From assembly GCA_000827205.1 (NCBI GenBank), contig KN832558.1, positions 330,792 through 394,791 on the forward strand: a stretch of DNA of 64,000 bases, read 5' to 3'. This DNA is from Plicaturopsis crispa FD-325 SS-3. Taxonomy: Eukaryota; Basidiomycota; Agaricomycetes; Amylocorticiales; Amylocorticiaceae. A program made the position numbers and the translations under genes. The notes below the pieces were generated by a model. The model did not search any database. It was not told the DNA's origin and saw only the letters and a program-made list of their open reading frames with translations. Numbering within the stretch: position 1 is the stretch's first letter; every line of letters starts with the position of its first letter. This document shows positions 28,928-61,984 of the stretch, in pieces.

Positions 28928-31900
28928 TCATCCCATGCGTCCTCTGGAGTCCCTTGAATTCGGATATGGATTATAGTAAGGTTTTCGCCTTCCGTCGCTA
29001 TAATGGTGTTCTCTATTCTCCGGTCTAACACCGTCTCTCAATGGCACCACCCGCGTATCAGAAACGTCTGACCTTCGGTGGTCACGGTTTTCGTCTTGCC
29101 ACGGCCTGCTCGAGTAAGAGGGTGGGGAAGGCGGTCGAGGTGGGTAAGGCGCATCGAAACGAGACGGACGGGCCCTTGCCGTTGACGGTGGTTCAGTACC
29201 ATTAGCGAGTTGGTGCGGCGACTGGCCTATCGGTCTGCTGGGTAAAGAAGCGGATGGAGCGGGTGGGGGGATGTTTCCGTTGAGACCTGCGGTGGGCTGC
29301 ATGTAATTGGGCGGATATGCCCCTGCATTCTGGTGTATCCCAGCTGGGAGCTGGACAGGTGCCACAGGACTCTGACCGCTCATACTGATGCCCCGTTGAG
29401 CGGCAAGAGCTACCGCATTGGTCAAGATTTGCTCGATCCTCACAGCGTCAGTTTGGAAAGGAGCAGGCGGCGCCATGGGCTCATGGGCACTGGCCGGGCG
29501 TGACTCGGGGGTGGGCTGCGCTGATAAAGGCCTGGTTCGTGGATCGCGGACTGTACCGGCGACAGACGAAGGAACAAATGCCTGACTCACGGGGCTTTGC
29601 GATGGGGTATTCATGCTCGATCCGGCAGCGACTTTGGCCTGACGGATAGCAGCAAGTCTGTCGGGGACTGACGATGCAGGGGCAGACGAAGGCCCTGCTA
29701 TGGCCTGCGATGAGGATTCTTGATTGACATTTGTGTTAAGCGTGAGAGGCGCTGCCGGTGCAGCTGCCGGCGTCTCCGAACGAGGTGTCAATGGCGGTTG
29801 CGGGGGAGATGGACCCCTAGATGGCGGACGCGGCTGTTTAGGCATAGAAGTGGAGGTAGAGGCATTGAGAGGGGCTGATGCAGCTGATGTTCGTGGGACA
29901 GTAGAAGTCAGTACAGCGGGAGGGTGTGTCGGTCCCGGGGTGGGAGGTGGCGTGGGTACTCTCGACAGCCTGGTTGAGGACGAATTCCTCGGTATCCGTC
30001 CAATCCCATTCACCGAGCTCTTGGAAGTCAGGGTTGTTGTTGTGACGGTTTTTGCGCCAGTGTGTGATGATAACTTGTTGACAGCGGACGGCTTAGATAC
30101 TAGCGGCTTGGCGGCCGTCTTGGAGGACGCTTTTGCAGGAGCCTTGGGTGTGTCCTTCGCCGCAGTCTTGCTGGATCCAGCTTTAGCAGAACGCTGTGTC
30201 GGCAGCTTCTGTTTGCTTGAGCTAGCTACGGCTGACGCAGAGGACTTTCCGGCCGTTGTCCTGCTCTTCGCCACCTTCGCGGGTGGAGCCTCGTCCTCGT
30301 CGTCGCTAGAAGCGGGAGCCTGCCTCTTCCGCGTATTGACTTTTCGTTGGAGGACAACAACGGCCGGCGTGTCACCTTTGCCGTCGCTCTTCAACTTCGC
30401 TGTCTTCATCTTCTGAATCACGAAATCGAACATGCATTTCGTGACCTTGCCGTTGAGTCGGATGTCGTCATGCTTCTTACGCACATCCTCGCGCATCAGT
30501 TCTATGGCGCTGCTGAGCTGGGTCAAGCTCATCGCCTTGCGGTTGCGGTAGATGAGAACGCCGGCCATGCAGAACTCCACAGGGCTCACGCGCACATTCC
30601 GCAGTGGACCGCTGTGCTTCTCTGAGCCGGCGAGCATCAGGAACACGTCGATGGTCTCGCGCACCTCTGCGCGAAACGACGCGGTCGGGACAGTCTCCTC
30701 GAGCCATTTTACCAGTGTAGCCGGCGTAGTGGGGAAACTGCGACGAGGATGTTTGGAAATGATATATGCAATAGACGTGATGCATTGGAAGTCGCGTCCG
30801 CGTGCGTTGCCCCAGTCGATGTAGTCCTTGAAGCCGTTCGATCCGATCACATCTTTCAATATCTCTCGCATGAATTGTGCGCATTCACTGGAGACGGCCT
30901 GCATGCGCTCTGCGGGCGTGAGAGCAACACCGAGTTGGACTCGCTGAGATGGGTTCGTTTAGTGTAAGCATCACCAGGACACAATACGGTATTACATACT
31001 TGAAACATTTCGCGCTCGTCGTTGTGTTCCAATTCGTCATATTCAACGCATGCAATCTGCTTGTTTGCGAATGCATTGATGTATTGCTTAGGAAGAATGG
31101 TTCGCCGAGGTGCCTTCGGATCACGCGACTCTTTGTACCACAGTCTTTGACCAGTGATACTACATACCGGGCACGGAAAACAAGGTCAATTAGTAAGACA
31201 TCGAGGAGTGAAAATAATGGGACGTACGAGTCCCGGACTTGAGGGCGAATGGTAAAGGCTGATTAGTTCTTGCTCGTCAGATGTATCAGAGTACTAGAAC
31301 ATACAAGGGATCTAGATGGAAATGTTTGGTTAGCTACGCTCTTGAAGAAGGGTATTGAGAAATACGCACCAATCCGTCCATGAATCTACGGAAGGTCGTA
31401 ACTCAAATCAATCAAACGTGCAATAATATTTTTTGACGAGCATACCGATGGATTGAGGTCATTCTTTGTTTTCCGTCGATGCATGTTCGAGTCTCGTTCC
31501 CGTCCTTATCATACGTTACGGCTACAAGCAACGGAAAGGGTCAACCCTTCACGAAACGCGAGACAGAACATAGTAGTTACATACCAAATATTATCGGAGG
31601 CATGTAGAAATTTCGGAATATTGAGTCGATGAGGGCCATCATCTTGTCGTCCTTCCAAACCACGTCTAGGCCTCGTGTTACTGTGTGTACAGTTGCGTGA
31701 ATTGATGCTGCGACTTACCTCGTTGATATTCAGGATCCAGGTCAATCGTATTTTGAACGATCATGTCTGTATTCATGCAATCAGTTTATGCTAAGTGCGG
31801 CATGAAAGGGGAAACGCACGGTATATGCTTAGAGCAGAGTACTGGGTGATGCGCGGGGGCTTGAGGGGCTTCTTTAGCACATATTCCGCCTTCTGCTTTC

Positions 31901-41594: not shown

Positions 41595-42530
41595 ATGACA
41601 TCTCTCGCCGCGCGCCCCCGCCCAGCCATCCCCTTCAAGCCCATCCACGACATTCCGAACACGAGCTCCAGCAGCACGCAGCGATGGTGCTCGACGTGCA
41701 ATAAACCGATACCACTCGCGCAGGTATTGAAAACGTGCGCTATGTGCAGAGAGAAGGACAAGAAGAAGCGGGAGAAAATAGCGAAGAGGAAGGCGGATGG
41801 CGTCGACGCGCACGCGATCAAACGCGTCAAACTCGAACCAAAAGACGCGTCAAACGCGAACACCCTGCATGATGGGGTGGTGAAAATGCAGCAGGAAGCT
41901 CACGCAGAAGAAATTACGCGCTTTGACGCGTCCAAAGTAAGTTTACCCATCGCCATAAGCTGCACGACCCCCGACGCTCACTTCGCCGGCTACCCAGAAC
42001 GAATACGCCGCTCCCGCCCCATACCAAAACGCCTCCCGCCTCCTAGACGAGCTGCGCCTACGCGCCAACACGTGTGCGGTGGTGTTCAGCGGGACGTACT
42101 CGCTCGTCGCGAACCCGAAGATCGACAACGCGCGGCGCATCGAGCTCGTCGCGCGCGAAGTGCGCAAGATCGCTAAATATACCTACGAGTGCGTCGCCTC
42201 CTGTCCACCGTCTACGCTAGCCCTGAAACTGACGCTATGACACTCAGTCACAAGGCGCCTCTCGCTCTGGACAAGACCGACGGTGATAGCTGCGCGACGC
42301 AGTGTTTCCGCTGCACGTGCAGCAGCGGTGGCCCAAGCGTGAAATTGACCTCAGTGCTCACGACAAAGGGGCCGAGCGACCTGTCGCGCTGGTTCGCGAA
42401 ACCCGTGCCTATCCCGACGGCACACGGGCACTGCGGCGGCACGGTGCGCATACGGGCGGAGGACGACGCGTCGCATCCGCTGGGCATCAAAGGGCAGAAA
42501 GTCACGGTGTGGATTCAGCATCCTGAGTGA
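41595..42530 (+). CDS. Zinc-ribbon / SHP-GQ domain family member A, about 271 aa
   Basis: Exons 41595-41936, 41998-42188 and 42248-42530. One ribbon CSTC-x12-CAMCRE (about residue 33) is followed by Lys/Arg-rich sequence (KKKREKIAKRK), suggesting a nuclear protein. The C-terminal half is the domain shared by all four family genes here: FSGTYSLVANPKIDNARRIE, a Cys cluster FRCTC, then CGGTVRIRAEDDASHPLG and GQKVTVWI at the end. The last intron falls inside the codon after TYE (GA|T), as in members C and D. I do not recognise this family. The name is descriptive, function is unknown, and zinc binding is inferred from Cys spacing. Confidence 0.8.
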
Positions 42531-42742
42531 GCCGCGGGCGGCATACTTATGCGTTTCTGGTGGGGCTGTAGTTTTTTTGCCGGAGGGAAGGGGTGCTGGA
42601 TAAGATTTTCTTGACAATTGTAATGTACATCTTCTATACATATTGCATCACTATATACTACTACACATCATTCAACACCACGACGCCGCACAAGAAAGCA
42701 AGCTCCGTCATCCCCCGAAGGACACAACAGCAGCAAACCCGC

Positions 42743-45007
42743 TCACCGCCCATGATGCTCCACCCAAACACTAATCTTCTGCCCCGCGAGCCCCAGCGGA
42801 TGTGTACCGTCGTCCTCGACGCGTATACGCACCGTCCCGCCGCACGCCGACCGATAATAATGCGCAGAGGCGGCCTCCGCGCACCGGCACGCGTAGGTGT
42901 GTGTCCGTGCGTTCGGTGCGGTCGACTCAGCGTTTGGCAACGGTTGAAGGCTATCCATCTATGATTCAGCAAAATGACAGACATACGTGGGGGAAAGACG
43001 TACTCGTGCGGAAGCTTCTCGCGCAGGGCGCCGGAGACGCGGCCGATGCGCTGCTCGTGGTCTATGTGCGGCTCCGCGATGATGGAGTACGTCCCGCTCA
43101 GCTGCACGCGTCCTTTCAGTCCCGCCGCCGCAAGCGAGGCGAGGAGGTTAGAGAGGTACTGATACTGCACAGGTGGGCCCGTATCAGTACTTATGGCGCG
43201 TGTTAGAGCGAAAGGATAGTACATACATCTGTAGTCGGGGCCTGGTCGGGGAGTTTAGCGCGTTTCGACGGCGGGGGCGCGGTTGTGGGCGATTTCCTTT
43301 TTACAGCAGCAGTAGTAGCAGTCTCAACATTGGTCACACCAGGATTTTCTGCGGTATTGACGTCTGCCACGGCCACAACAGAACCCTTCTCCTGAGCCGG
43401 GATCGCATCCAGCTGCTGCTTCTCCCGCTGTTTCTCCCGATACTTCTTGACCCTGTCCCTACACGATTGACACATCTTGTAGCCCGGAACGCCGTGCACG
43501 GGGCGTCTGCACACGGTGCATGGGCGGGATGGTTCTGGGCCTGGTGCGGCGGAATCTGGGGCTGGTGATGCGGAAGGCGAGGTTGATGGGGAGGTTTTGG
43601 GTATGGACGGTGCACTGAGCTGGGCAGATGTAGATGCTATAGATGCGTCCACGCTCACGTCGGGTGCATCGACGCGTTCGTGGGATATATCTACGCGTCT
43701 CCCGGACCCACTCGCGTCCCCGTCGTGCGCAGGTAGATCCGCCATTTCCCGCTCCACCCCGTCCGCGCCTGCGCGCATCGCAGACGCCCGCCGCCGACTG
43801 CGCTCCCTGCTATACTCCCTGCACCGCGCGCACGTCCTGAACGGCAGCTTATCGACGGGGCTTTTGCAGACGGTACATAAGCGTGGTGTCTCCGTCGTCT
43901 GAACGGGTTCTGATGGTGAGGATGGTGGGTTCGGTGTGGATAGCGGCGGGGCTTTTGATGTTGGGGGATCCATTCGCTGACTATCGATTGCAGGGTTTTG
44001 CGCGGGCTGGGCAGCGGCGCCCGCCTTCCGCTCGGCGGCGGCACCCGCCTTTCGGTCAGCAGCGGCACCGACCTTCCACTTCGCGGCAGCACTGGCCTTC
44101 CGCTCGACGGCCACCCGAGCATCCTCCACAGCAGCCAAAACGGCAGCATGCCGCTCCTCCTTCTCCTGCTGCTTCTTCGGGTCTGTCACTTTGACACGTT
44201 TGGGCACATCGACGCGTTTCGGCGTTTTGTGCGCTACGCCTGAGCCTGACGCGGACGCCCCGTGCGAGGCAGAGGCGGATGTCCTGTGCGAGCCTGACGC
44301 GGACACTACGGCTGAGGTCGACGCGGACGCCCCTTGCGAGCCTGATGAAGACGCTACGGCCGAGGTTGACACCGCAGAGCGCCGCCTTCTACTGCGCTCT
44401 CTGCTGCTCTCCCTACACCGCGCACACGTCCTCAACTCGGGATCATCAACGAGGCGCTGGCAACGTGTGCATGTATTAGCCACGGAGTCCGTCTGTACAG
44501 GCGACGGCGTGGGTGTTGGGGCGTCGGCTGGCGAGTGGGCTTGCAAAGACCCTGCTGCGCCCGTACGCGACGCGCTTTCTTCTTTCGCGAGGGCCTCCGC
44601 TGCCCATCCTGCGCGCCCCTCGAGAGTGAATTTGAAGGCCGGCGGTGCGTAGCCCTTGTATACGTAGTTTTTGTGTGGTATGGGTGCGGCTGAGGGCTCC
44701 AATTGAACAGTGTTCGTGCTCGCCTGCGACAGATTTGACGCGTGTTTCTCAGGCAAGGCAGTTGCGCTGGACGACGATTCTGCCATGTCTGTGCTTTCCG
44801 AGACTTGTTTTTGTTTTGCGATCATTGTGACGGCCGCAAACCGTGTGAGAATCCTCTTCCTGCGTTGCTCAGAGGCCTTGACGTGGTCCCTGCACCCCTC
44901 GCAACGTTTATAGCCAGAAGACAGAGGAACGAGCCGCGTGTTGTATCTCGAGCATGGACGTACGTGCACGAATGTGATCCATTGCAAGCTGTAATTTGGT
45001 AGCACAT
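42743..45007 (-). CDS. Zinc-ribbon / SHP-GQ domain family member B, about 695 aa (5' end uncertain)
   Basis: Preferred exons: 45007..44964, 44889..43227, 43164..43000 and 42958..42743. Three full ribbons are present: CTRC-x11-CARCRE, CTVC-x11-CARCRE and CTVC-x12-CQSCRD, separated by Ala/Ser/Pro-rich linkers, one with repeated AAAERKAG-like units. The C-terminal domain follows (LSGTYSIIAEPHIDHEQRI, YACRC, CGGTVRIRVEDDGTHPLG, GQKISVWVEH). A TATAAAA 39 bp before the ATG at 45007 and a strong donor GTACGT support this start. Without that splice the frame runs through a ribbon-like stretch (RPCSRY..KRCEGCRDH) that has no in-frame ATG, the first one being at 44825. Convergent with A and divergent from C. 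Function unknown. Confidence 0.72.
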
Positions 45008-45184
45008 ATTTTGTCGCAGTGTCTTCACGGCGCGTCGAACGGGGGTTTTATACTCGCATTGCTTTCGATTTCAAAGTTCGAAAACCAAAAGGCTGTTTTG
45101 CAACTGCTCCTTGTTCTCTACAACCATCTGGTCAACCCTGGGTCAACCAAAACCACCCCTCCAACGCGAAAAAGACGCGTCGAA
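45008..45184. promoter_or_regulatory. Compact divergent promoter of members B and C
   Basis: Only 177 bp lie between the start codons of B (45007) and C (45185). TATAAAA on the minus strand at 45046-45052 serves B. GGTCAACC occurs twice (45130-45150) and ACGCGT lies at 45175-45180, just before the C start. Shared control of the pair is likely (inference). Confidence 0.6.
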
Positions 45185-46514
45185 ATGTCGTCTACCCCAG
45201 AGCCAGCAGCCCGGTCGACATCCAGTACCACCCGCGTGCCACCGGGCTTTCGAACGACCCAGCTCATGCCCGTATCCACTAAAGGGGACGTCCCAATCAT
45301 GAAAGAAATGGAGGTGCGCCCGTGCACGCAGTGCAAGCGGCGCCCCGTCATCGTCGCGTCCCCGTGGAAGCGCTGCGACCGGTGCAGAGAAAACGGCAGG
45401 CGCGCCGAGCAGCGGAAGCAGGCGAAACGGAAGTCGTTGGCGGCGATGATTGATGGCATAGAAGATGACCCATCCGCGACGGCTAGCTCGGACGCTCAGA
45501 GCGCAGCACCCGTCCCCGAGAAACGCGCCGACGACGCGAGGCCGTCCGGACGCGCGTGCTCGATATGCAAACACGCCATTCCTTTGGAACAGGCGTGGAA
45601 AACGTGTACGCGGTGCCGGGAGCGCGGCAGGGAGCAGAACCGACGAAGTAGACAGCGAAAGCGAGCGTCCGACGCCGCCTCCAGCGAGGCGGATGCCACA
45701 ATGGCGCTGGACTCCGACGACGCGGAGGGCGGGCCTACGCTGAGCTCGATGAAAGAGGCGCTCGACGTCGCGAAGCGGAAGGCGCGCGACTCCCCCGCGG
45801 GCAAGCCCCCAGCCGCAAAGCGCCCCAAACTGGCCGACTACGGGAGCTCATCCAAGTCCAAGCAGCCCGAGAGCGAGTGGTACAAGGTACGCACACCCCC
45901 ACCCCGCACGATATGAATTATAAGCAGCCCCATCTCACGAGCCGCGGTCGCACCAGGGAATCGCACCTACCACGTACCAAAACGTGTTCGACTTCCTCGA
46001 GCGTGTGGCGACGCTCGTGGAGACGAAGAAGAAGACGGCGCGCGTGCAGTTCGGGGGGACGTACTCCATCGTCGCGATGCCCGGCATCGACCACGCGCGC
46101 CGCATCGAGCGCGTCGCCGCAGACGTGCGCGACACCGCGAAGCTCCCGTACGAGTGCGTATATACATATCTGCTCTCTCCCCCACTCTCCCGTGATATCA
46201 ACTGTGCGCTGACGGTGAGACTGCACAGCGACCGGCCGCTGGGGACGTCCCATGAGGGCAAAGTCGGGACGCGGTACAAAGTCTGGACGAGCACGTACGT
46301 CTGTAAATGCTGTTGCCCCACCGGAGCCGCCCCGCAGAAGTCGCCGCGCCCTGCTGCGTCGGCGTCCGCCTCCCCGTACACCAGCCTCCCGCTCGGTCCG
46401 CCGCAGCGGTCCGTGTGCGGCGGGACGGTGCACATCCGCGTCGAGGACGACGACTCGCACCCGCTCAAGTTCGTGGGCCAGAAGATCAGCCTCTGGGTCG
46501 AGCATTCCGTATAG
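45185..46514 (+). CDS. Zinc-ribbon / SHP-GQ domain family member C, about 394 aa
   Basis: Exons 45185-45886, 45957-46153 and 46229-46514. Two ribbons: CTQC-x13-CDRCRE (about residue 45) and CSIC-x12-CTRCRE (about 125), each followed by Arg-rich helices (RRAEQRKQAKRK, REQNRRSRQRKR) that look like nuclear signals or nucleic-acid contacts. The shared C-terminal domain reads FGGTYSIVAMPGIDHARRIE, YVCKCCC, CGGTVHIRVEDDDSHPLK and GQKISLWVEH. The last intron again splits the codon GA|C after PYE. Function unknown, with a DNA- or RNA-binding role plausible but unproven. Confidence 0.82.
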
Positions 46515-46890
46515 CCGCGGGCTGCTTTCCTCTCGCATTCCTGTTTTCCTCTAGCATTCCCTATTATCCAAGTTATATCTTAGAATCCCGATCCCGACAG
46601 TTTACTCGTACCGATTTTTTACACATGATGATACTTAAGTACCTATATAGTATTACTGTACTGACTGTAGTTTGTGCCATAATCGGAGCCGCATATATGC
46701 ATGGTGGTCGTGGTCGTGCAACAGGTATCTTTGAATAATGTGGCGCAATATGCGAGAGTCTGATAATATAAATTTATCGAAAACAACGACAACACTGTAC
46801 GCCCAAGTCAGCACGCACGAGACAATGACGGGGGAGCTCAGACACGCACATTAATGCGGGAAAAGACAACAGACAACGGACGTGCCCCCG
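46515..46890. other. Convergent 3' region
   Basis: AT-rich spacer between member C (plus) and DUF262-2 (minus). Expected to hold both polyadenylation regions. No gene seen. Confidence 0.45.
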
Positions 46891-48939
46891 TCACCTTCGC
46901 CGCTCACCCCACCCAGAATCGCTAGGCGGCAGCGGCGCGTGGTAATATCCATTCGGCTCCGGCTCGTGCCCGCGGTACCCATGCGACTGCGACTGTGGAT
47001 ACGCGTACCGCGACGTCGAGTCGGACATCGCCGTGTCGCCGTTCGAGTCCCTGTACATCGGCGATATGGGCGTCGTCGCGGAGGCCGGGGACCGCAGGGC
47101 CCGCGGGGCGGAAGGGACGGCACGCACGGCACGCAGCGACGCGAGGCGGTCGGGCGGCGCGCGCGACGAGGACGCCGTACGCGACGAGAACGACGACGCT
47201 GTCGGGACTGGCGCGGACACGACAGGGCTCGGCGGCGGCTCCCGCTTCACCCTACGTGTGCGCTCCTCCGTCTCCGCCTCCCGCGGCTCGGGGCTGCGTC
47301 TCCTCTTCTCCGCGGTGCCGCCGAACTTGAGGTGCTTGATGTAGTCCATCAAGGTCGACCCGACGCGCGTGTTCAGACTGATATCGCGGTGCTCCTCGCG
47401 CACGTTCGCGCGCATCTCGCCGATCGCCTTCGCGAGCTGCTTGTCGTCCGCCTTGTCCTTCCACACCGCGATGAGCACTACGATCAGGATGAACTCGATC
47501 GGCGCGACGCGCGCCGGCGTGCGGAACACGTTGTTCAGCTTGTTGTTGCGCACGAGGCGCACGAAGACTTTGAAGGTATCGTTCACACGCGCGGTGAATT
47601 CGGGCGTTGGGGCCTCCGGGCGTGAAAGCCATTTATCTACCTGTGCGATGGCGCCGCCGTTTTTGCTATCGGGGTATATGTCGATATTGTATAACGCCTG
47701 AGCAAGACATCGGAAGTCTGCCCCTCGGCCCATTTCAACGCTAAGTGCATCGCCCGTCAGCGCGTCGTCGTTTAAGAAGTCGTTCTGTAATTTGCGGACT
47801 AGGGCTGCCCGTGGCCCTTTAGTGGCTTGTAGTTTTTCTATAGAAATCGAAGATCGTAGGTTGCATCAATGCGAATTATACAGTGCTGCGTACCTGCAGG
47901 CGTTAATGCCATGCCTAATTGCACCCTCTACAACGGAAATGGATATCAGTTGGGCATTGAGCAATTGCGATATCGGACCAACCTGGAAAACTTCGCGTTC
48001 GTCGGCATCCGTGATATCTTGGTATTCCACACACACGATCTGCTTGTTGGCGAAGAGACGCTGGTATTTGGTGGACAAAGTCTTTTTCTTCGTCGACATG
48101 TTTCCCAAGTCCTTGTACCAGTATTTGTCGTTTGTATGTCTGAGTCCATCGTCAATATCACGATCTCAGTGTATCTCTTGGTGTCTACGTACGGATCTTT
48201 GACTGGAAAGTTTTCAGGGTCAGCCCGATAGCATACGACAATCTTCAGAATTTTGAATGCACTCACTTGATATCTAACAGAGGTAGGTTAAAAACCGTGA
48301 GTAAGGGGGATAGGGGGCACGGAATAAATTTCTGACCAAACCGTCCATAAATCTGGACGTCAAATGCAAGATAAGTGGTCAACGAACTGGTATCGGCATC
48401 GAACATCGAAACTAACCTTTGTATCGATGTCAATCGTTGTTTGCCATCGATACATGTTCTCGTCTCAGAGCCCTCCTCGTCCACACTCACGGCTGGACGG
48501 CGATACGCTCAACGAATAGCCAGTGCCACAGGAGGACATGGGACGTACTGAAAATGACAGGGGGCACGTAGAAATTTCGAAAGATAGAGTCTATGAGACC
48601 GGACTGCTTTGCTTCTGGCCATACCACATCTGTACGTTCATTCCGGTCAATACATGGCAGAAAATGCGGTAAAAAGCGCCACACACCGCGTTGATACTCA
48701 GGCTCCAAGTTAATATCGGCACTATGAATCTGATCTACGCAAGCGGTATTAATCCTCCGGCGCAGGTCACCCGTACGAATGGCATACGGACCGTAGAGTG
48801 CCTGTGTGGTATACGTTGTGGCGCGGGGGGCTTTCAGAGCGTGCCGCACTCTGTAGCCTGTGGTTTGCGACGCCTTCTTCTTGCTTGTAGGATCGAACTC
48901 GTCATCGAGGTCGGTAAGATCGGATTCGTCGTCGAGCAT
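46891..48939 (-). CDS. DUF262-domain protein 2, about 507 aa
   Basis: Ten exons: 48939..48792, 48734..48687, 48629..48549, 48492..48417, 48352..48337, 48273..48267, 48202..48193, 48139..47983, 47927..47894 and 47837..46891. Signatures match DUF262-1: INLEPEYQRDVVW, SIFRNFYVPPVIF, CIDGKQRLTSIQRFMDG, KYWYKD, ANKQIVCVEY, RVQLGMALTPAEKLQA. Exons 2 to 7 have exactly the same lengths as in DUF262-1 (48, 81, 76, 16, 7, 10 nt), so the two genes share a direct ancestor. An acidic leader (DDESDLTDLDDEFD) precedes the domain. The tail is shorter (about 180 residues), Ser/Arg/Pro-rich, and ends GWGERRR. Molecular role unknown. Confidence 0.86.
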
Positions 48940-49171
48940 ATCTCTAGGAAAAACAATGCGATCCGTACAAGCACGTTCAAAAAACGAGGTGAGGAGGTTC
49001 CGGACGAAAGCAGGCCACTGCTCAAACGGAAGCAGAGCGAAATGTTGTCGGGAATCGGGACCTGTTCTTTCACCTCCTCCCGGCTGGCAGTGGCATTTGT
49101 ATACAGGAGTATACAGGTCGTATACCTGTTCTGTTGACCGGTCTGCCCAAGGTCAATACGTAGGGTGCGCA
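48940..49171. promoter_or_regulatory. Divergent promoter region, DUF262-2 / MAD1
   Basis: 232 bp between the start codons. It contains a tandem GTATACAGG (near 49100-49118) but no ACGCGT. Both genes must be driven from here. Confidence 0.5.
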
Positions 49172-51645
49172 ATGGACAGGGATAGCTTCTCAACGCCCCC
49201 AAACCAAATCCGCTCCAATGCACGCCCATCCAGGTCAACGGCAGCGAAACGCGACTCGCTTCAGGCAGAACTCGACAGAGGTACGTGATGCCATGATGTC
49301 GTTCTCTTTGTGTTACCTGATGCACAGGCATTCTACTAGATCCCCAACTCTCGACTGCGAAGCGGCAGCAGCGTTCACAGACGCTTACTTCGCATATGGC
49401 ACACGCGTCACTCGAGCGCCAGCTTTTGACCGTTCAAACGATGAAAACAGAGCTCGAGTCCAAGTTACGGGAGAAGGACGTGCTCATTGAACGGTTGGAG
49501 CGTGATAGGCGGTGGCTCGCTGAGCGGGAGACGAAGGAACGCGAAGAAAAGGAACGAGAACGGGCAGAAGCACAGGAGGACAAAGTGCGTCTCGTTCCAC
49601 ACGGAGCCTTTCGCGCGTTCTACTGACGGTGACGTGAACAGCGGAAAGCTGACGAGGCCCTGCGTAGCGCGCGTGATGCTCTCGCAAGCCTACAGCAAGA
49701 ACACGAAGATCTAGACGACGCGCACTCGTCGCTATCACGCAGCACCCACCAAATCATTGCGTCACAGAAATCCCAGATATATACACTCACGCGTCAGGTA
49801 TCCGCTCTCGAAGCCGAATTAGTCGAAGTTAAGCTGCTTGCCGATGAACGCGGACAGTCAATACGCGCGATGCAAGAAAAACTGGACGATCTCAGCACGG
49901 CGCAAGACATCACAAGCCGCAAGAGCTTGGAAGAGGACACCTGGGCCGTCGTACGCACCGAACTTCACAAACAGGCCGAATACCATCGCCAACTCGAGTC
50001 GGTGAACGCGAAGCAAAATGCAGAGCTGGCGGTACTACGTGAGCGACATGCAAGCGTCGAAGTTCTGCGGGAGGAGAAGCGTGCACTGGAGCGCAAAGTA
50101 AGCACAATGGAGGCACTGCGAAACAAAGTCGCGCAGCTCGAGGCAGAGGTGGAAGCCGGACGGCGCGAGCGACAAGAGTGGTCAGTCAAATTCAGTATCA
50201 TGTTGTCCGACGATACATTTACATTGTGCAGGGCGACGAAAACTGTTGAAGCGTCCTCGGCCTCCAAAACGCCGGTTTCAGTCACACGAAATCTGTCTGC
50301 TTTGCGCCTTACGCATGCACGACTGCTCGAGGACCACGGTGCAAACGTTGCACTCTTGCGTACACGCGAAGCCGAACTCGCGGACGCCGAACGGCGCGAG
50401 GCAGAATCGCGAACGGAGATCAATGAGCTGCAGGTAGCGCTGCGCTCGCTGAAGGAGAAACTCCAACGACGGGAGCACAGGACCGTGCTAGCCGAACGTG
50501 AAGTCGGATTCCTGCAAGCACTAGTCGTGAGTGTAATCCGTATTCGCGTAGCGTTAACTAATTGTTGTCGAAGTCGAGCTTCTCGGCGGAGGAAGAAGCA
50601 GCGGGAACAGAGAGTGCGGATGTCGCAAAGGCTAAAGTGCAACGATTGCAGGAGCTGGAGACGCTGCTGGAGGAATATAAGGCGACGAACAAAGCGTTAG
50701 AAAAGGAGATCGACGCGTTCGGTGGCGATGCAGGGACTTTGGGCACAGGAAAGTCGCGCAAAGAACTCAGTCAGGAGGTGGAGGAAGCGCGCGTCGCAAA
50801 AGCTGAGGCGCAGTCAGGTACGCGCACTCGTCGTTTCACCTCGAGATCCACTTCCTGCTCACCTAGTTGTCATTAGCTCTCAAAGAAGCGGAGCAGGTCA
50901 GCGAGCAGCAGCTTGAGCGGATCGATGAGCTTGAGCAAACGCTATTCGACCTTCAAGGTGACATCGCTTCGGGAAACCATGTGCCCCCCGGTAGGCGTAT
51001 CTTGTGTCTCCAAGATAACCCCGCCCAGCAATGGGAAGACCTCAGCCGTGCAGCCATGACACAGCTCAGAGGGGAAAACGAGGCGCTTATGAATCGTCTT
51101 AAAGAACTGGAGCAAAGTGGGTACAAGGGTGGTAGCGGTGAAGCCAGCGGTGGTGAACTTGTGCCCAGAGAAAGCTGGGACATTGTGAACAAGGAGAAAG
51201 GTGAGCTCGAAGAGGTGGTAAAGCAGAAGGAAAAGCGTCTGTTGCGACTCCAGCAGGTGAGTCTCGTTCGACTACGGCCCAATGTCCCTAACGCGAGGAA
51301 ATTTTGAAGGTATTTAAAGCAAAGAGTGCGGAATTCCGAGAAGCTATCGCCACCATCCTTGGAGTGAAGCTTGCATTTTATCCGAACGGGCAAGTGCGGT
51401 GCACCTCGATCTACGACCTCAATGCGTCGTTCATCTTCCAGCCGCAGTCCGGTGCTGCAGCTACCGGGGAGGGCATGAAGATGCAGCTCGTCGCGCAAAG
51501 CGAGGGCGGCCCGGAGGAGCTCCCGCAGATCATGCGCAACTGGGTCGAAGAGGAGCAGTGTATCCCCTGTTTCCTTGCCAGTGTCACGCTCGAATGCTAT
51601 GACAAGATGAAACGGGAGGAGGCAGAACAAGCTTTGGCCCAATAG
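49172..51645 (+). CDS. MAD1: Spindle assembly checkpoint protein MAD1, about 715 aa
   Basis: Seven exons: 49172-49280, 49340-49584, 49642-50180, 50232-50526, 50574-50817, 50877-51256 and 51310-51645. Most of the protein is coiled coil (long Glu/Arg/Lys/Leu heptads). The C-terminal 110 residues form the Mad1 CTD: RLLRLQQVFKAKSAEFREAI, then LGVKLAFYPNGQVRCTSIYD, with the RLK-type motif that docks Bub1 in the family. The middle region before it would hold the Mad2-binding segment, which I cannot pinpoint. MAD1 recruits MAD2 to unattached kinetochores. Length is close to fungal MAD1. Transcribed away from DUF262-2. Confidence 0.9.
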
Positions 51646-52028
51646 CCTTAATGACGGACCATGGTGCAAAGGGACCCACTTTCTCAATTGTGTTGCTCCT
51701 CCTGTATATGATCTGTGCGTATGTGTACATCCTGTATCCCAGTTATATCTTGACTTCCTTGTTTGTCCTCGAGCACTGTAAACCGTGGCATAGCGCACAT
51801 GTGCGCTCCAAAGCTTCCTGTAGTGGGGCCTTGGAACTCTACCACAAGAACGAATGCTCGCCCAGAAATTGCTCGCCTTTTCCTAAGAAGGCATCGATAG
51901 GCACATCGACGTGGATATACTGGCACGGGAGGGCGCCACTTTCGATGGGGACATCGGAGCCCACTGGGCATATATAGGCGTGCAGTTACAAGCATATATA
52001 CCGCATCCTGATATCATCTTCCCTGAGA
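51646..52028. promoter_or_regulatory. MAD1 3' end and ABM-protein promoter
   Basis: TATATAGG at 51971-51978 and a second TATATA near 51995 lie 58 and 33 bp before the ATG at 52029. No other gene is supported. Confidence 0.5.
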
Positions 52029-52781
52029 ATGTCTGGTACGTTGGGTCATTTTTCGACAAGCCGTCCACGTTACGAGTAGCAGGCAAATCTATAGCAGCTT
52101 ACGGTCTCCTCGTACCTCTGAGCGCCAAGGAAGGCGAAGAGGACGCTCTCGCCGACTTTCTTCTCGGCGGATACGACCTCGTCCAGGCGGAACCCGACAC
52201 CGCACAGTGGTTCGCCGTCAAGTACCCAGACGTCCCAAACACATTTGCAATATTCGATACTTTCGTAGCGCAGAGCGGGCGCCAGGCGCACCTGTCGGGG
52301 AAACTCGCAGAGGCTTTGATGGCCAAGGCGCCGTCATTGCTGAGTCCGGCACCACAGATTGACGAAGTAGCGGTATTGGCTAGCAAAGTAAAGAGTGTGG
52401 TGTCGAAGGAGAAGAATGCAGGCCTGCGGGTTGGTTTGACGGTTCTTCTCACTGCAAAGCCGAAGCAGGTGGAGGCCGTGAAGGACTTGTTGACGGTGCG
52501 TACTGCTACCGTTAACATCGTAACGTCTGAGTTGAACAAAACCCCAGAGCGCGCTTCCCCTCGTAGAGGCGGAACCGGACACCCCGGTATGGTACGCCGT
52601 CGAATTTCCTGGGACTGATATATTCGCCGTCATCGATTTCTTCCCCGACGAACTCGGAAGGAATGCACACCTCGGGGGAAAAGTCGCGGAGGCCTTGTTT
52701 GCGAATTCGGATACATTCTTCGTCGCCACTCCGATAGTTCAGAAATTCACCGTCGTGGCCGCAAAAGTGTCGAGATTATGA
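52029..52781 (+). CDS. Protein with two tandem ABM-like (antibiotic biosynthesis monooxygenase fold) domains, 217 aa
   Basis: Exons 52029-52035 (ATGTCTG, 7 nt), 52083-52495 and 52548-52781. The first intron gives M-S-G-K-S-I, and reading without it finds no in-frame ATG. Two repeats of the dimeric alpha-beta barrel pattern follow: AYGLLVPLSAKEGEEDALADFL .. EPDTAQWFAVKYP .. FAIFDTFVAQSGRQAHLSGK, then GLTVLLTAKPKQVEAVKDLL .. EPDTPVWYAVEFPG .. FAVIDFFPDELGRNAHLGGK. Such proteins are heme-degrading, quinol-oxidising or of unknown function, and bacterial ones usually form dimers of single domains. Here the fused pair could fold as an internal dimer (inference). Substrate unknown. Probably cytosolic. 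Confidence 0.8.
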
Positions 52782-52944
52782 TCGTATGATCGATAGAAAG
52801 TGTGTCTGAGGGGGCTCTAACCATAACGAATGACAATATCCACGCATGTCAAGGTTTTAGGATCCGGCGAGAGTCAGTCGATGTTTCGAAAAGTACAGAG
52901 CCAAACGGACACCTTTCTGTTATGTTTTCTGAACATCGATATGA

Positions 52945-54225
52945 TTACTGATCGAACCCAGCATTTGTGTTGCTTTCGTCCACCAATCGCTTTACTTCTT
53001 CTGCAATTCGGACAGCATCCTGTCATATTCCCTGCACGTTAGATACCTTTGGTGTTAAATATGGCGTGACTCACAGGTGTGTCTGAATGACAGCAAATGG
53101 AGACGGCATCGACGCCCTCTCCTATTGGGAGGCGCCCGTTGTTATTGGTTGTCACCTCGTGCATCGACAACAGAGTCTTTACCTAGCGAGCAAGGAAGTG
53201 AGTAGAGTCCATGGAAGGGACAAATGCGTCACACCCTCTGCCGAACTTCATCCGACGATACCGGAGTATGCTGCCTATTCGCGATAGCGGAGTAAGCGTA
53301 CGCAAAACGAACAGAAACGAGCTTGCCTTACTTCGTGATGAGTAATTTTCCCTCGGGGCTGTAATCGAGGTCCGCGAACCACTCTGAACGCGCATCGCCA
53401 TTCAGTTCCGATAAACAAACTGAACGATGAATGGTATGCTTACCGGCTATGAAAGGTACGCCGGCCTCTGCAGCAGCTGTCTGGTGTGCCGTGCCCGCCA
53501 GGCCTACGAATGCTACGTCGTATATTTTGGCGACGTTTACTGCGGCACGAGCGAGCGGAAGCGAGCGCGCCGACTGCCCATAAACTGCACCGTGTGGTTT
53601 GACCTATCAACCGCATCTAGTGAAAGAGAACAATACGGCGAGAAACGAGGCGTACATGGTTCAAGGGCAGCCCGTGGCGTTTGAGGAACCCTGACAAAGC
53701 GCCGACCTGGTATATGAAGCATGCTTCTAGCTCATCCTTAAATTCTATGTTAGAGCTGACCACAGTGACTAAGATAAGCGCAATGTGATTTATTCACCGG
53801 CTCGATTGCCATCTCTCGTCGGCCAAATCCCTGAAGATCAGGAAGTGACGGGTGTGCACCAACAAGAACGTTGTTCTCCTTTGCAAGGGCAACAGTCTTG
53901 TTCATGATGGCGAAGTCCCTTCGACCGTGTCCAACGTTGTAAGGCAAGAGATCAGGTACTCGGGATAGAGAGTACACACTCACGAAGCATGAAAACCGCA
54001 AGCGATATTGGCGAGATGAATTCTCTTCATGAGCGACTCGTCGTCTCCCTGCCAAGCTGTTCACTTTCACGCATTGTTTTTTCAGACCTATAGCAGATAC
54101 CATTCTGTACAGCGAAAAGCCCTTAAATGCGAAAGACTTTCATTAAGTTACCTCTTCAAATTCGTGTGGGTACACACCTCTCCCATATCACAATTTACTG
54201 TGGCGCGAAGTGGTCTTAGGGCCAT
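52945..54225 (-). CDS. pxpA: 5-oxoprolinase subunit A, LamB/YcsF family, about 256 aa
   Basis: Ten exons: 54225..54178, 54121..54101 (21 nt), 54048..53984, 53918..53798, 53736..53656, 53603..53444, 53383..53332, 53274..53235, 53182..53075 and 53019..52945. Family motifs appear in order: [92 protein letters not shown] and SICCHSDTP. In bacteria PxpA works with PxpB/PxpC to hydrolyse 5-oxoproline to glutamate using ATP. A carboxylase of the urea-carboxylase type, a group in which PxpB/C-like (KipI/KipA) modules are often fused, starts 8.6 kb away. It is likely cytosolic. Length equals that of bacterial homologues. Confidence 0.93.
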
Positions 54226-54996
54226 GATGGGTGGGACTGCAAGAGATCAAGGGCTACTGTTCGGTACGACGACTCGGACGTCACTTCAGAGCTGCTGCGG
54301 CGCGTCCCACGATATTGCTTCGTTTCGTGCGAAACAGAACCCATATAAGCAAGCGCTTGACCAGGACATCGAACTCACGAAGGAGAATTGTCTGAGTTCT
54401 ACCATTGAACATTCCCACCAGCTTAGTTTGCACGAAGGTCGTGACATAGAGCCCTTGTCGAAATTAAGTACGATTGCTGTCGCGCCGCACTCGCCTTCAT
54501 TGCAACAAGTTCGCACCGATATGCCCCTCAAGCGCGTTGTAGAGATCCTAGTAGTCATTTGGAGAAACACCGTTGTAGACAAGCCTCGACGAGTTCGTTA
54601 CTGCGCACGAAATCGAGCAGAAGATGGTACGGACGCCGGACGGTAAGTAAAGCAGCTGGACGTCGGGCAAAAGCCCCTGACGAATGCAAAGTCTTCCCCA
54701 GATGCGATTTTGATTGGTTCCCGGCGGCGCTATCTTAGATCTCGGTCAATATTTCGGCGACGCCAAAAAAAATTACAAATTTTATGTCGACGAAGCAAAG
54801 GCAACAGCTCGATGGCGACGGCGTTCGTTTCCCTCATGCCCTACTCTCTTTCCTTCCACAGGTCGCACACGATCTCTTATACCCAGGTCTAACAGTTTTT
54901 ACGGTGAGCGCATCGATTTTCTATCACCAATGACATACATTTACCCCGCATTTTGTTATCTAGTGAATATACCATTCTTAGAGTGTCGCCTGCAGG
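54226..54996. other. Divergent region, pxpA / zinc-ribbon member D
   Basis: 771 bp between start codons. Long open frames here on the plus strand overlap the pxpA 5' exons and have no motifs. Upstream exons of member D cannot be excluded. Confidence 0.4.
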
Positions 54997-57900
54997 ATGC
55001 AGGCGAGTTCGTCACCTGGGTCGCAACAACGCGACCTAGCAACTTTGTTTCGGCAATGTCCGTCATGCGATGGCTTTCTGGTCGAACTGAGCGTGAACAA
55101 GGGCGTGTGTACTAAATGTCATAAGTACACTGGTGGACGTCCCAAGTCTAATGATGCGGACGACGGCACACACCCTCCAACTACAGCTCAAACATCGCAA
55201 CCAACCGTTGCTACGGCCTCAGCCGAAGCTTTGTTCATTATGCCTGACGCGAAGGTGTACGAGAACAATGTGAGTACGCGTCATATCTACAACCCGGGCT
55301 CCCACCTTTGCAATTTAGAGGCGACGCGATTTTTTCCTTGATTTCCCCTAGTTTTCTGCTCATTTCCGTTTTTTAACGGAATTTTGACTTGTATACCTCT
55401 GTACATTACCGCCGTGCAACGCTGACATAGAATCCAAAATTCTAGAGCACGAACCGATGGGCTCCGATGGTGCGATGCTTCCAATGTTGGGCACTGCTAG
55501 AGAACCCTCCCAAAGGACCTGATGAGCTCGCTATGTGCACATCTTGTCGACGCACGAGCGCAACGACGCGGCAGCGACCGCGTATCTCGAGTGCTCCCGC
55601 GCAGACTGCTGTCTTACATACAGCTCCATCGCAGACACCTCAATATGCAGGCAGCGCCGTGCCACCCCCACATGCGACTCCCCGAAGTTTTGAGCCAGCC
55701 GGTGTCTATTTCAACGCCAAGGGGGAGCTTGTAGCGCCAACCCGTCCACCCGTACGTTCTATGTCCGTCCATATCGAAGCGGTGATGCTCACGAGGATTT
55801 CGCGTTTTCGTCCTCAGGCACCGCAAACGGCCTCCGCACCCAGGTTTTCGCAGACGCATACGGCCCCGTTACCTTCTCGGGCGCAGCCTCTTCCCCATCG
55901 CGATTCTGCCGCGCATGTTCGTATGTGCATGCGATACGGCTGCGGTACCGCTCTTCCCCGCCATATCGTTGGGATGGTATGCGATCGCTGCCTGTCGTCC
56001 GGGTATGGCAGTGGATTAGGTGCCAAGAATTTGTCGCTCTTGCAGCCACGCGGCCTGGAAAACCTACCGCAGCCGATGGCTCCAGCGACGCCGCCAACGA
56101 AGGTGCGTAGCCTCATTTCGTTAATTGCAGACTTGCTAAAGTCAACTGTGTAGCCGAAGATGACGAAAGCGGGCTGTGCGTTAGCTCCTCACCCTGGGCC
56201 TGCATCTCAGCCCCACCCTCCTCTGATTCCTATAGCCTCGAGCTCCACTCAAGCGGGGAAGCAACAAATCGCGAAGCGTCCTTCAGTGCAGTCTCAGCGC
56301 CACGTTAGTGCACCATCGGCGCCTTCTATACGTCCACCCGCAGTGCCGCCGATACCGCGACCGGAAACAGTGCCGACGACGGTCAACCCTGCAGATATAA
56401 CGGTACCGCTGCAGCCGTCATGGGCCCTTCAGTTTACGAACACTACACGCAGAGCGTCTACGTCGAGTACATCAGCGTCGCCACCGCCACCCGTAAAACT
56501 TCCGTCTTTGCTCGAATGGCCATCCTCCCTTCAAGTACCTGGTGTCGAGCCCGGCACTGTCACGGATGAACCTATCGTAAGCTGGCGCAGCGCTACTATG
56601 GCGACGTATTTATCTAACTCTTTCATGTTTAGATACAGCGTGTGTGTGAAACCGAAGGATGTGGGGGCGTTGTACCTGATAGTGCGCTGTGGATGCGATG
56701 CCCTGCATGTAGCTGGAAGCGGTGGAAAGCCAGGAGGAACCCCAAAGCTCTGGAACCGGAAGCGAGCCCCGCTGCAGAACATACGTCTCAGGACTCCAAA
56801 CCTCGTCCGCCCCAGCCGCTTAGCCTTGGAGGTGCAGGGCAGGGTGGTCAGGGCCACGGAGCGCACCCCGCCGTAGTCGTTGATGCTCAGGCCGCAGTCG
56901 ATTCGCCTGTAACTCTTGAGGCAGCTCCTGCCGTTCAGATCGAAGTAACTGGGAAATCGTCTTCTCAGCCCCCAATAGGGGACACACCTTCTCAGCACGC
57001 AGTCCCACCGCACACAGTCCCTAGTGCGTCGGCAATGGGCCCGCCTTCTAATCCATCACCAATGATTGGGTCTGCTATTGAGCCCATGACTGTGGATCCT
57101 CTCTCTGGTACGGAGGAAAGACCGCAAGTAGGAGGCGACTCCAGCAAATCAGGCCCAGAGGCACATACCGTTGTTCCTGCTGCTGACGATCCAATGGGCA
57201 CGGCCGCCGACGAGGCACTAGATCCCTCAATCTTGGTCGACGATTTGGTGCTGGCTTGGCCCGAAGCGCCTACAGAAGATGGAGCTGCCGGTTCCGTCCA
57301 AGAGACATCGACGATCCCCGCCGTTAACGATGATGCCGTCGCCGGTGAAGAGCACGCCCACATCAGTGGATGGGACAGTGAGCTCACCGACATTAGCTCC
57401 TCCGATGACTCTGAGGGAGAGTCAGAGATCGACTCCGCTAGCTCTTCAGAGAATCAACCTGTAAGGGTCTGTGATTATTGTATCATTCGGACTCTCATTT
57501 TTTACCCAGCCGCGCAAGTTGTCCGGTATCAAAATCCGCATACCTCCGCTCGCCTCTCTTTCATCCGGCATTGCACCCGCTGAAGCTACTCGCATATGCG
57601 CTATACGGACTTGTGAGACGCCTCTCCCACATGATTACCGGTGGAAATTGTGTCCTCCGTGTCGCACCCGTAATCGGGAATATCAACGTGTCCGTCTCAA
57701 CGTGGCCAATCCTCGTCTGGGACCTTCATTGCATTCGTCGAACGCAGCAACTTCCGGCTGGGCTGATTCCATGAACGGCGATCTAGCAGTCGTGAGTGAT
57801 CGTTCGATGCAAAATGACTGTACATCTATCTAACATCTCACGATGTGTAGCCCTCGACGCCGACAAAGGTTCGCATGATACCCCTACCGCCAGGCTATCG

Positions 57901-59015
57901 TGTCTGCACGCTCCGTAGCTGCACAACTGTCATCCCTCCCGTTGAAGAGTATCGTTGGAAAATGTGCGGGCCTTGTCGGGATCGCACCCGCGTGAGTGCA
58001 CAGCTGCGACAGGACAAGGCGACCACAGGCTTGGACCCGTTGACCCAGGCCGATGATAGTGACAGTGACGAAGTGCCTCTTGCTGCCAACAGCGCGTACT
58101 ACCGCAAACGCAAGCGTCATGCCGACACTCCCGCTGGTCATTCGAACGTAGCTGTAAGTGCTGCGCTGCTCGTCCATTTGATCTGTTACTTATCCTTCGT
58201 AAAATTTAGCCACATCAAGCAGGGAAGACTCGAAGACGACTGATCGACGGGCGCCATTCAACGTGTGCCAATACGTTTTGCGGTGCTCTAGTCGACCCCT
58301 CGTCCAATCGTAAAGAATGCGCAGACTGCTGTGCGAAGGGGTTCATTACAGTTAGTCGGTCACACAAGAAGGGCAAAGGTCGTGCGAATGTCAAGAATCA
58401 GGTACTTCCTGCAATGTTCGTGCTCAATTTTGGAGCTGATGAGACGCCATTCAGAAGCCGAAGAGCCAGCCTTTCCATCAGTATCCCGTCTTCCAGCACC
58501 TTGGAAAGCTTATGGAGGCCTTGAAAACCCGGCTCGAGAACTTCATTGAGGCGCAGAAATGCTACTTGCAATTCAAGCACCGGCAGGAAGGCTTTGAGCA
58601 GACTAGCGCCGCGTTTGCCTTTGATGGAGAATACGCGATCGTTGCAGACCCCCAGGCCAAGCCAGCAGATACTCAGCATCGCGTGAACTCCATCCAGAAA
58701 GATATTGGGACCACGTTTGGTATCAACTTCGAGTCAGTACTCCTTTCTATCCTTCGATGTCATCACCGGAAACTTATCTCTGCACGCAGTCCGAACGGGG
58801 CGTTCAGTCTACGGGATGGGGGCGTGCTCCTTCGATTTTCGTGCTGTCCTGAATTTGTCATGCTCTTACCGAAACCCACCGCTGAAAAGCCCGACGACAC
58901 CATCGTCCTCGCCAAACATATGACAGGCGAGCTGGAGGTTGCAGTCCTTCCCGACGACTCCCATCCATTCTGGACGGGACAGCGGATTACAGTACGTTTT
59001 CGACTTGTCGGTTAA
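54997..59015 (+). CDS. Zinc-ribbon / SHP-GQ domain family member D (giant), about 1131 aa
   Basis: Ten exons: 54997-55269, 55446-55751, 55818-56102, 56154-56576, 56633-57460, 57510-57791, 57851-58153, 58210-58401, 58455-58732 and 58790-59015. The first eight are all multiples of three with phase-0 borders, and seven of them carry exactly one ribbon: CPSC..CTKC, CFQC..CTSC, CMRYGC..CDRC, CETEGC..CPAC, CAIRTC..CPPCR, CTLRSC..CGPCR, CANTFC..CADC. Ribbons 3-7 use C-x4-C rather than C-x2-C. Between them are Pro/Ser/Thr-rich and acidic linkers. The C-terminal domain (FDGEYAIVADPQAKPADTQH, then TGELEVAVLPDDSHPF and GQRITVRF) is the most diverged of the four. The last intron splits GA|T as in A and C. 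Function unknown. Confidence 0.78.
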
Positions 59016-61644: not shown

Positions 61645-61984
61645 GCAACGCTCAGGGGTCAATTCACCTTATCTAGAATTGTGGCGTCTCCGTTGAAATT
61701 TTCACCTCGCTACCATGCACATAGCTTGAAACGCGCTGGGACATGGTTTGCTCGAACGAACGTGAATTCTGGGCAATGGATAACGCAGATAGAAAGAGTA
61801 CGGATAGATCGAGGTACGAAATGAATGTGGTAAGCTGCCGGATGTCAATGTCGGCGTGGACGGTATCTGTTCTCATCTTCTCTAACCTTCATCAATCGGG
61901 TATGGTGTAACGGCTAACATTGCCGCCTCTCATACGCATCTGCGCAGATCGCGGCAGCTCGGGGTTCGATTCCCCGTACCCGAA
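61645..61984 (+). repeat. Duplicated tRNA-Glu segment, copy 2
   Basis: Partner of 700-1043: CTCAGGGGTCAATTCACC, TTGTGGCGTCTC, CGCGCTGGGACATGG and the tRNA follow in the same order and spacing, with differences only in the flank. Confidence 0.7.
61896..61984 (+). tRNA. tRNA-Glu (anticodon CTC) with a 17-nt intron, second copy
   Basis: All 89 bases, including the intron, match the tRNA at 955-1043. Anticodon CTC lies at 61929-61931 and the intron at 61933-61949. Confidence 0.95.

Follow-up and report, generated by a model that had tools for sequence, protein, structure and literature searches.

Background

The treble-clef fold is built from a zinc knuckle, a beta-hairpin and an alpha-helix that bears the second pair of ligands. 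Among Cys4 fingers, the GATA type joins a C-x2-C pair by a loop to a second C-x2-C at the start of a helix, with a basic tail, an arrangement that the fingers described below resemble. At the level of a whole domain, the account of the fold of yeast Yer067w/Rgi1 (PMC2887356) gives a two-layer alpha/beta structure with a seven-stranded sheet, in which the order of strands and helices is similar to that in our low-confidence model of a second domain described below. We analysed a stretch of 64,000 nucleotides from the basidiomycete Plicaturopsis crispa (the window), in which four neighbouring genes of one family, A to D, each combine one or more Cys4 fingers with a common C-terminal domain (CTD) that matches no catalogued protein family searched (Pfam, NCBIfam).

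Results

Four neighbouring genes

The models of genes A to D (Table 1) are predictions spliced by hand, the joins between finger exons and CTD exons being read from the sequence. All 14 proposed introns, which measure 49 to 176 nt, are of the GT-AG type. In the second intron of gene B a simple pattern detects no branch-point-like sequence, and its acceptor was picked to preserve the reading frame. The upper coordinate of gene B is the limit of the open frame and not a placed start codon, and 607 codons of this frame were used ahead of the CTD.

Table 1. Predicted genes and exons of the family (positions in the window)
Feature	Position	Strand	Content
Gene A	41595-42530	+	hand-spliced, 271 aa, 1 finger + CTD; first position = ATG
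Gene A exon 1	41595..41936	+	one finger (C-x2-C-x12-C-x2-C-RE) + KRVKL motif
Gene A exon 2	41998..42188	+	CTD, first part
Gene A exon 3	42248..42530	+	CTD, second part, then stop
Gene B	about 45047-42743	-	hand-spliced; 3 complete fingers + one degenerate + CTD
Gene B first coding region	43227..45047	-	degenerate finger + 3 complete, KRAKL motif, in-frame 24-nt repeats
Gene B exon, CTD first part	43004..43164	-	
Gene B last exon	42743..42950	-	CTD, second part, then stop
Gene C	45185-46514	+	hand-spliced, 394 aa, 2 fingers + CTD
Gene C exon 1	45185..45886	+	two fingers + KRPKL motif
Gene C exon 2	45957..46153	+	CTD, first part
Gene C exon 3	46229..46514	+	CTD, second part, then stop
Gene D	54997-59015	+	hand-spliced, 1153 aa, 7 fingers + CTD
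Gene D exon 1	54997..55269	+	finger D1 (C-x2-C, zero net tail charge)
Gene D exon 2	55446..56102	+	fingers D2 + D3
Gene D exon 3	56154..56576	+	linker, no finger
Gene D exon 4	56633..57460	+	finger D4 + long linker
Gene D exon 5	57510..57791	+	finger D5
Gene D exon 6	57851..58153	+	finger D6
Gene D exon 7	58210..58401	+	finger D7
Gene D exon 8	58455..58732	+	CTD, first part
Gene D exon 9	58790..59015	+	CTD, second part, then stop

Genes A and B are convergent, with their ends 213 bp apart, and genes B and C divergent, with 138 bp from the end of the open frame of B to the ATG of C; gene D starts 8.5 kb past C, with a MAD-like and a LamB/YcsF-like gene in between. When ten neighbouring frames were scanned against Pfam, four were matched (MAD, F-box-like, biotin carboxylase, LamB/YcsF), none of them to a transposase, and six had no match.

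The window holds some further features. The coding frame of gene B contains 24-nt tandem repeats at 44006-44111 and 44242-44370, which might differ in length from strain to strain. Two frames on the minus strand, 28931-30958 and 46894-47865, the latter lying between genes C and D, are alike over 167 residues (32%, E 6e-23), and neither has a Pfam match. ARAGORN reports two 89-nt tRNA genes without a type, at 955-1043 and 61896-61984, identical in 89 of 89 bases, the sequence of which resembles an intron-bearing tRNA-Glu.

The fingers

An earlier note on this DNA had listed four genes at these places, with one, three, two and seven fingers, and both points are borne out by the 13 complete Cys4 fingers of the window (A 1, B 3, C 2, D 7), to which must be added a degenerate finger, B1 (44823-44966, minus strand), that opens gene B and has Tyr in place of its second Cys. 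A strict pattern (four Cys followed by R or K and by a tail with at least six basic residues) matches the window seven times, always inside A to D (7 of the 13 complete fingers), as against no match in each of 20 Markov-shuffled windows. The spacing proposed earlier, C-x(2,4)-C-x(11-16)-C-x-x-C, holds in 13 of 13 complete fingers, except that its x3 variant never occurs: fingers D3 to D7 have C-x4-C as their first pair, whereas D1, D2 and those of A, B and C have C-x2-C. That the last Cys is usually followed by R-[DE] and a basic helix is true of the basic character, the net charge of the tail being +3 or more in 11 of the 13 (D1, at 0, and D3, at +1, lack a clearly basic tail), but it is too general for R-[DE], present in 7 of 13 (8 of 14 with B1) and in just one of the seven fingers of D. 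Three Cys are invariant in the alignment; the fourth is missing in B1 alone.

The AlphaFold2 model of the finger, made from the 14 window sequences, is a confident one (pLDDT 91.8), with strands at residues 2-4 and 11-13 and a helix at 22-43, and Cys 21 and 24, the second pair, stand at the start of this helix; the model contains no metal, and the ion bound would presumably be zinc. Since a hairpin and a helix are predicted with confidence and the second Cys pair stands at the helix start, we think that "treble-clef-like", by the definition of the fold given above, should replace the term "ribbon" that the fingers had first been given. None of the zinc-ribbon families of Pfam (Zn_ribbon_3, Zn_ribbon_15, DZR, DZR_2) exceeded its curated cut-off, the best score being 17.7 bits against 27.

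No other Pfam family passed its cut-off with a finger either. The sequence profile of the fingers reached E 0.089 at best against the PDB, and against PHROGs there were weak matches alone (24 families within E 1, the lowest value being 0.0066). Foldseek returned 22 matches of the finger model to solved structures, the best at E 3.9; none is significant, so that no solved treble clef is found among significant matches.

The C-terminal domain

Genes A, B and C are clearly homologous in the CTD: with the CTD of gene C as a BLAST-like query, both CTD exons were recovered in A (E 9.6e-8 and 9.2e-9) and in B (E 4.6e-5 and 6.5e-10), and stretches of 91-99 nt in the CTD exons are 73-79% alike at the nucleotide level in the pairs B-C and A-B. 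Gene D is more distant. It was not matched by C or B in the BLAST-like search, and as a query it returned itself alone; it is tied to the family by an hhalign comparison with the profile of A, B and C (probability 92.6%, E 4.4e-7, for a single comparison) and by two intron positions common to all four genes, one of phase 0 ahead of the CTD and one of phase 2 that interrupts it at a shared Asp codon. On these grounds the claim of one common domain can be upheld. Identity to C is 43% for A, 52% for B and 29% for D, and the residues invariant in all four (numbered as in C) are Q5, G31, Y33, A37, P39, D42, R46, D63, C88, C90, G128, D137, H140, P141, G146 and Q147. A third Cys is present in A, B and C and missing from D. 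A profile of the four members recovers these by construction, and found no other place in the rest of the window below E 0.89.

The earlier note could name no domain for the pattern, and for the CTD this agrees with searches of both Pfam (no family over its cut-off, best AreA_N at E 0.15, 13.2 bits against 21.5) and NCBIfam (none over its cut-off, best ribosomal L31 at E 0.11), as it does for the fingers in Pfam. With a limit of E 10, the CTD profile drew a single match from the PDB (E 1.7). Structure prediction, which the earlier note had proposed for both parts and which succeeded for the finger, was poor for the CTD (pLDDT 44), with a low-confidence order of beta-alpha-beta-alpha-beta-beta-beta; from this model, 0 of 208 Foldseek matches in the PDB reached E 0.001 or better. 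The C-x-C ... C ... H pattern of the domain had also raised the zinc folds of WRKY/GCM1 and FLYWCH as candidates. We dropped them because gene D is without the third Cys and the CTD model is too poor.

Distribution

BLAST-like searches of the 33.2-Mb genome of the same fungus (49 contigs) place the CTD at the A-D locus only, with otherwise one match at E 1.96. For the fingers they give two loci, the A-D cluster and a fifth gene, E, which lies on the minus strand of contig C17 (416568-419542) and was reached with finger D6 (E 2.5e-4). Gene E has five fingers with a first pair C-x4-C, of which four are complete and the remaining one has C-x2-H for a last pair, and no CTD match was found around it in the 9 kb read. 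The idea of a family confined to a four-gene cluster thus stands for the CTD, at the sensitivity of BLAST, and not for the fingers. As these searches would not detect copies that have diverged as far as D has from C, the counts are lower bounds, that is, at least four CTD genes and at least five finger genes in this genome. There were other weak matches on C11 (E 0.050), C10 (E 0.18), C7 (E 0.049) and at a second place on C17 (E 1.96); the loci of weak matches (L031, L032, L026, L028, L049, L056) gave no match to the finger profile at E 0.5 and none to the CTD at E 5. In the 10-kb flanks of the window no CTD was matched, and finger matches did not go below E 0.27.

Scans of viral contigs (46 pattern matches, 0 confirmed) and of prokaryote genomes (40 pattern matches, 0 confirmed) yielded no relative. 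Nor did a search of open-licence papers turn up such a family, which does not prove its absence from print, and sequence databases may well list its members as hypothetical proteins already.

Discussion

The genes are tightly clustered, as the earlier note had observed, but its suggestion of a recent local expansion is not supported, given about one substitution per synonymous site among A, B and C (dS/dN of 1.00/0.55 for A-B, 0.98/0.67 for A-C and 1.07/0.42 for B-C). For C-D the values are 2.16/1.06, and dS is saturated for A-D and B-D. Within gene B, fingers B2 and B3 are alike in 77 of 126 bases. In gene D all seven exons ahead of the CTD are multiples of three, so that finger exons could come or go without a shift of frame.

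Our preferred explanation, to which we give even weight for and against, is that A to D form a small family of fungal nuclear nucleic-acid-binding regulators, made of treble-clef-like fingers and a shared CTD. Between fingers and CTD lies a KR-x-KL motif in A (KRVKL), B (KRAKL) and C (KRPKL), of a form that resembles the classical import signal and that of c-Myc; gene D is without it and has RKRKR instead, ahead of finger D7. Judged by these motifs, the nuclear location proposed earlier is likely, and the motifs together with the basic helices favour nuclear nucleic-acid binding. Each finger would present the basic helix that starts from its second Cys pair as the probable contact with nucleic acid, DNA being a likelier target than RNA; the import-like motif and a linker would connect the fingers to the CTD, which may be of an alpha/beta type and would most likely serve in dimerisation or in binding a partner or a small ligand. 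Extra fingers would then give a protein more contacts or wider ones. Against this explanation count the want of a significant match of the fingers among solved structures, the tails of D1 and D3, the departures of gene D (no KR-x-KL, no third Cys in the CTD) and the low confidence of the CTD model.

The basic tails of 11 of the 13 complete window fingers bear in different ways on two other readings. They speak against the view, which we hold to be unlikely, that the fingers bind protein or ubiquitin, as do some small treble-clef, UBZ or RING-like fingers, and that the proteins are nuclear scaffolds; this view can draw on weak Foldseek matches to chains of the TAX1BP1 UBZ and of HOIP (E 3.9-9.4) and on the Pfam family zf_UBZ, to which 3 of 19 fingers are weakly matched (E 0.059 at best), yet the UBZ and HOIP scores are all insignificant. 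The same basic tails would suit proteins that bind RNA, with fingers of the kind found in ribosomal proteins and a role in RNA processing, for instance. We consider this about as unlikely: some of the weak finger matches are indeed chains of ribosome structures, but their scores are insignificant as well, and no RNA-binding family was matched at its Pfam cut-off. It seems highly improbable, finally, that A to D go back to a mobile element, either as its remains or as parts that were domesticated. Adjoining copies, a variable number of fingers and the lack of a named family could be so explained, but introns are conserved and frames open, at BLAST sensitivity there is one locus with the CTD and there are two with fingers, and the neighbouring frames matched in Pfam include no transposase.

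If we return to the family of nuclear regulators, a further step may be tentatively entertained, namely that the CTD represents a new fungal domain, with a fold or a ligand of its own, which acts as the common output or dimerisation part, and that the range of targets is set by the gain, loss and decay of treble-clef fingers (in D on frame-neutral exons); we regard this as possible, though doubtful. Should A to D be nuclear regulators, they would represent a class of fungal proteins, binding DNA or RNA, that is absent from the domain libraries searched and, for this reason, probably from the lists of fungal transcription factors too. Profiles of the finger and of the CTD would enable annotators to find the family, and paralogues with one to seven fingers make the relation between finger count and target choice testable.

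Comparison with known systems

For the CTD, the best Foldseek match is yeast Yer067w/Rgi1 (3bcy; E 0.021, probability 0.97, from the model of pLDDT 44), with an rmsd of 8.2, and 3bcy is absent from the matches of the CTD sequence profile up to E 10. We do not adopt membership of the Rgi1 family; with a model of such low confidence, the similarity is a lead only.

For the fingers, several described families come into view, all at weak scores. The double zinc ribbon DZR_2 (PF18912) has the top Pfam score of any finger (E 0.0032, finger B4), at 17.7 bits against its cut-off of 27, and matches 2 of 19 fingers; the DksA-like zinc finger of phages (phrog_54) has an insignificant match to finger A1 (E 0.0071), in 1 of 19. 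The GATA-type finger shares the general plan, but the loop of the window fingers is of 11-16 residues and no finger matches the GATA zinc finger of Pfam at E 1 or better. DUF2116, a probable treble clef (PF09889), is matched weakly in 3 of 19 fingers, and although its best score (E 0.024, 15.0 bits against a cut-off of 26.8) sets it apart from them, its two Cys pairs and its name suit the predicted fold.
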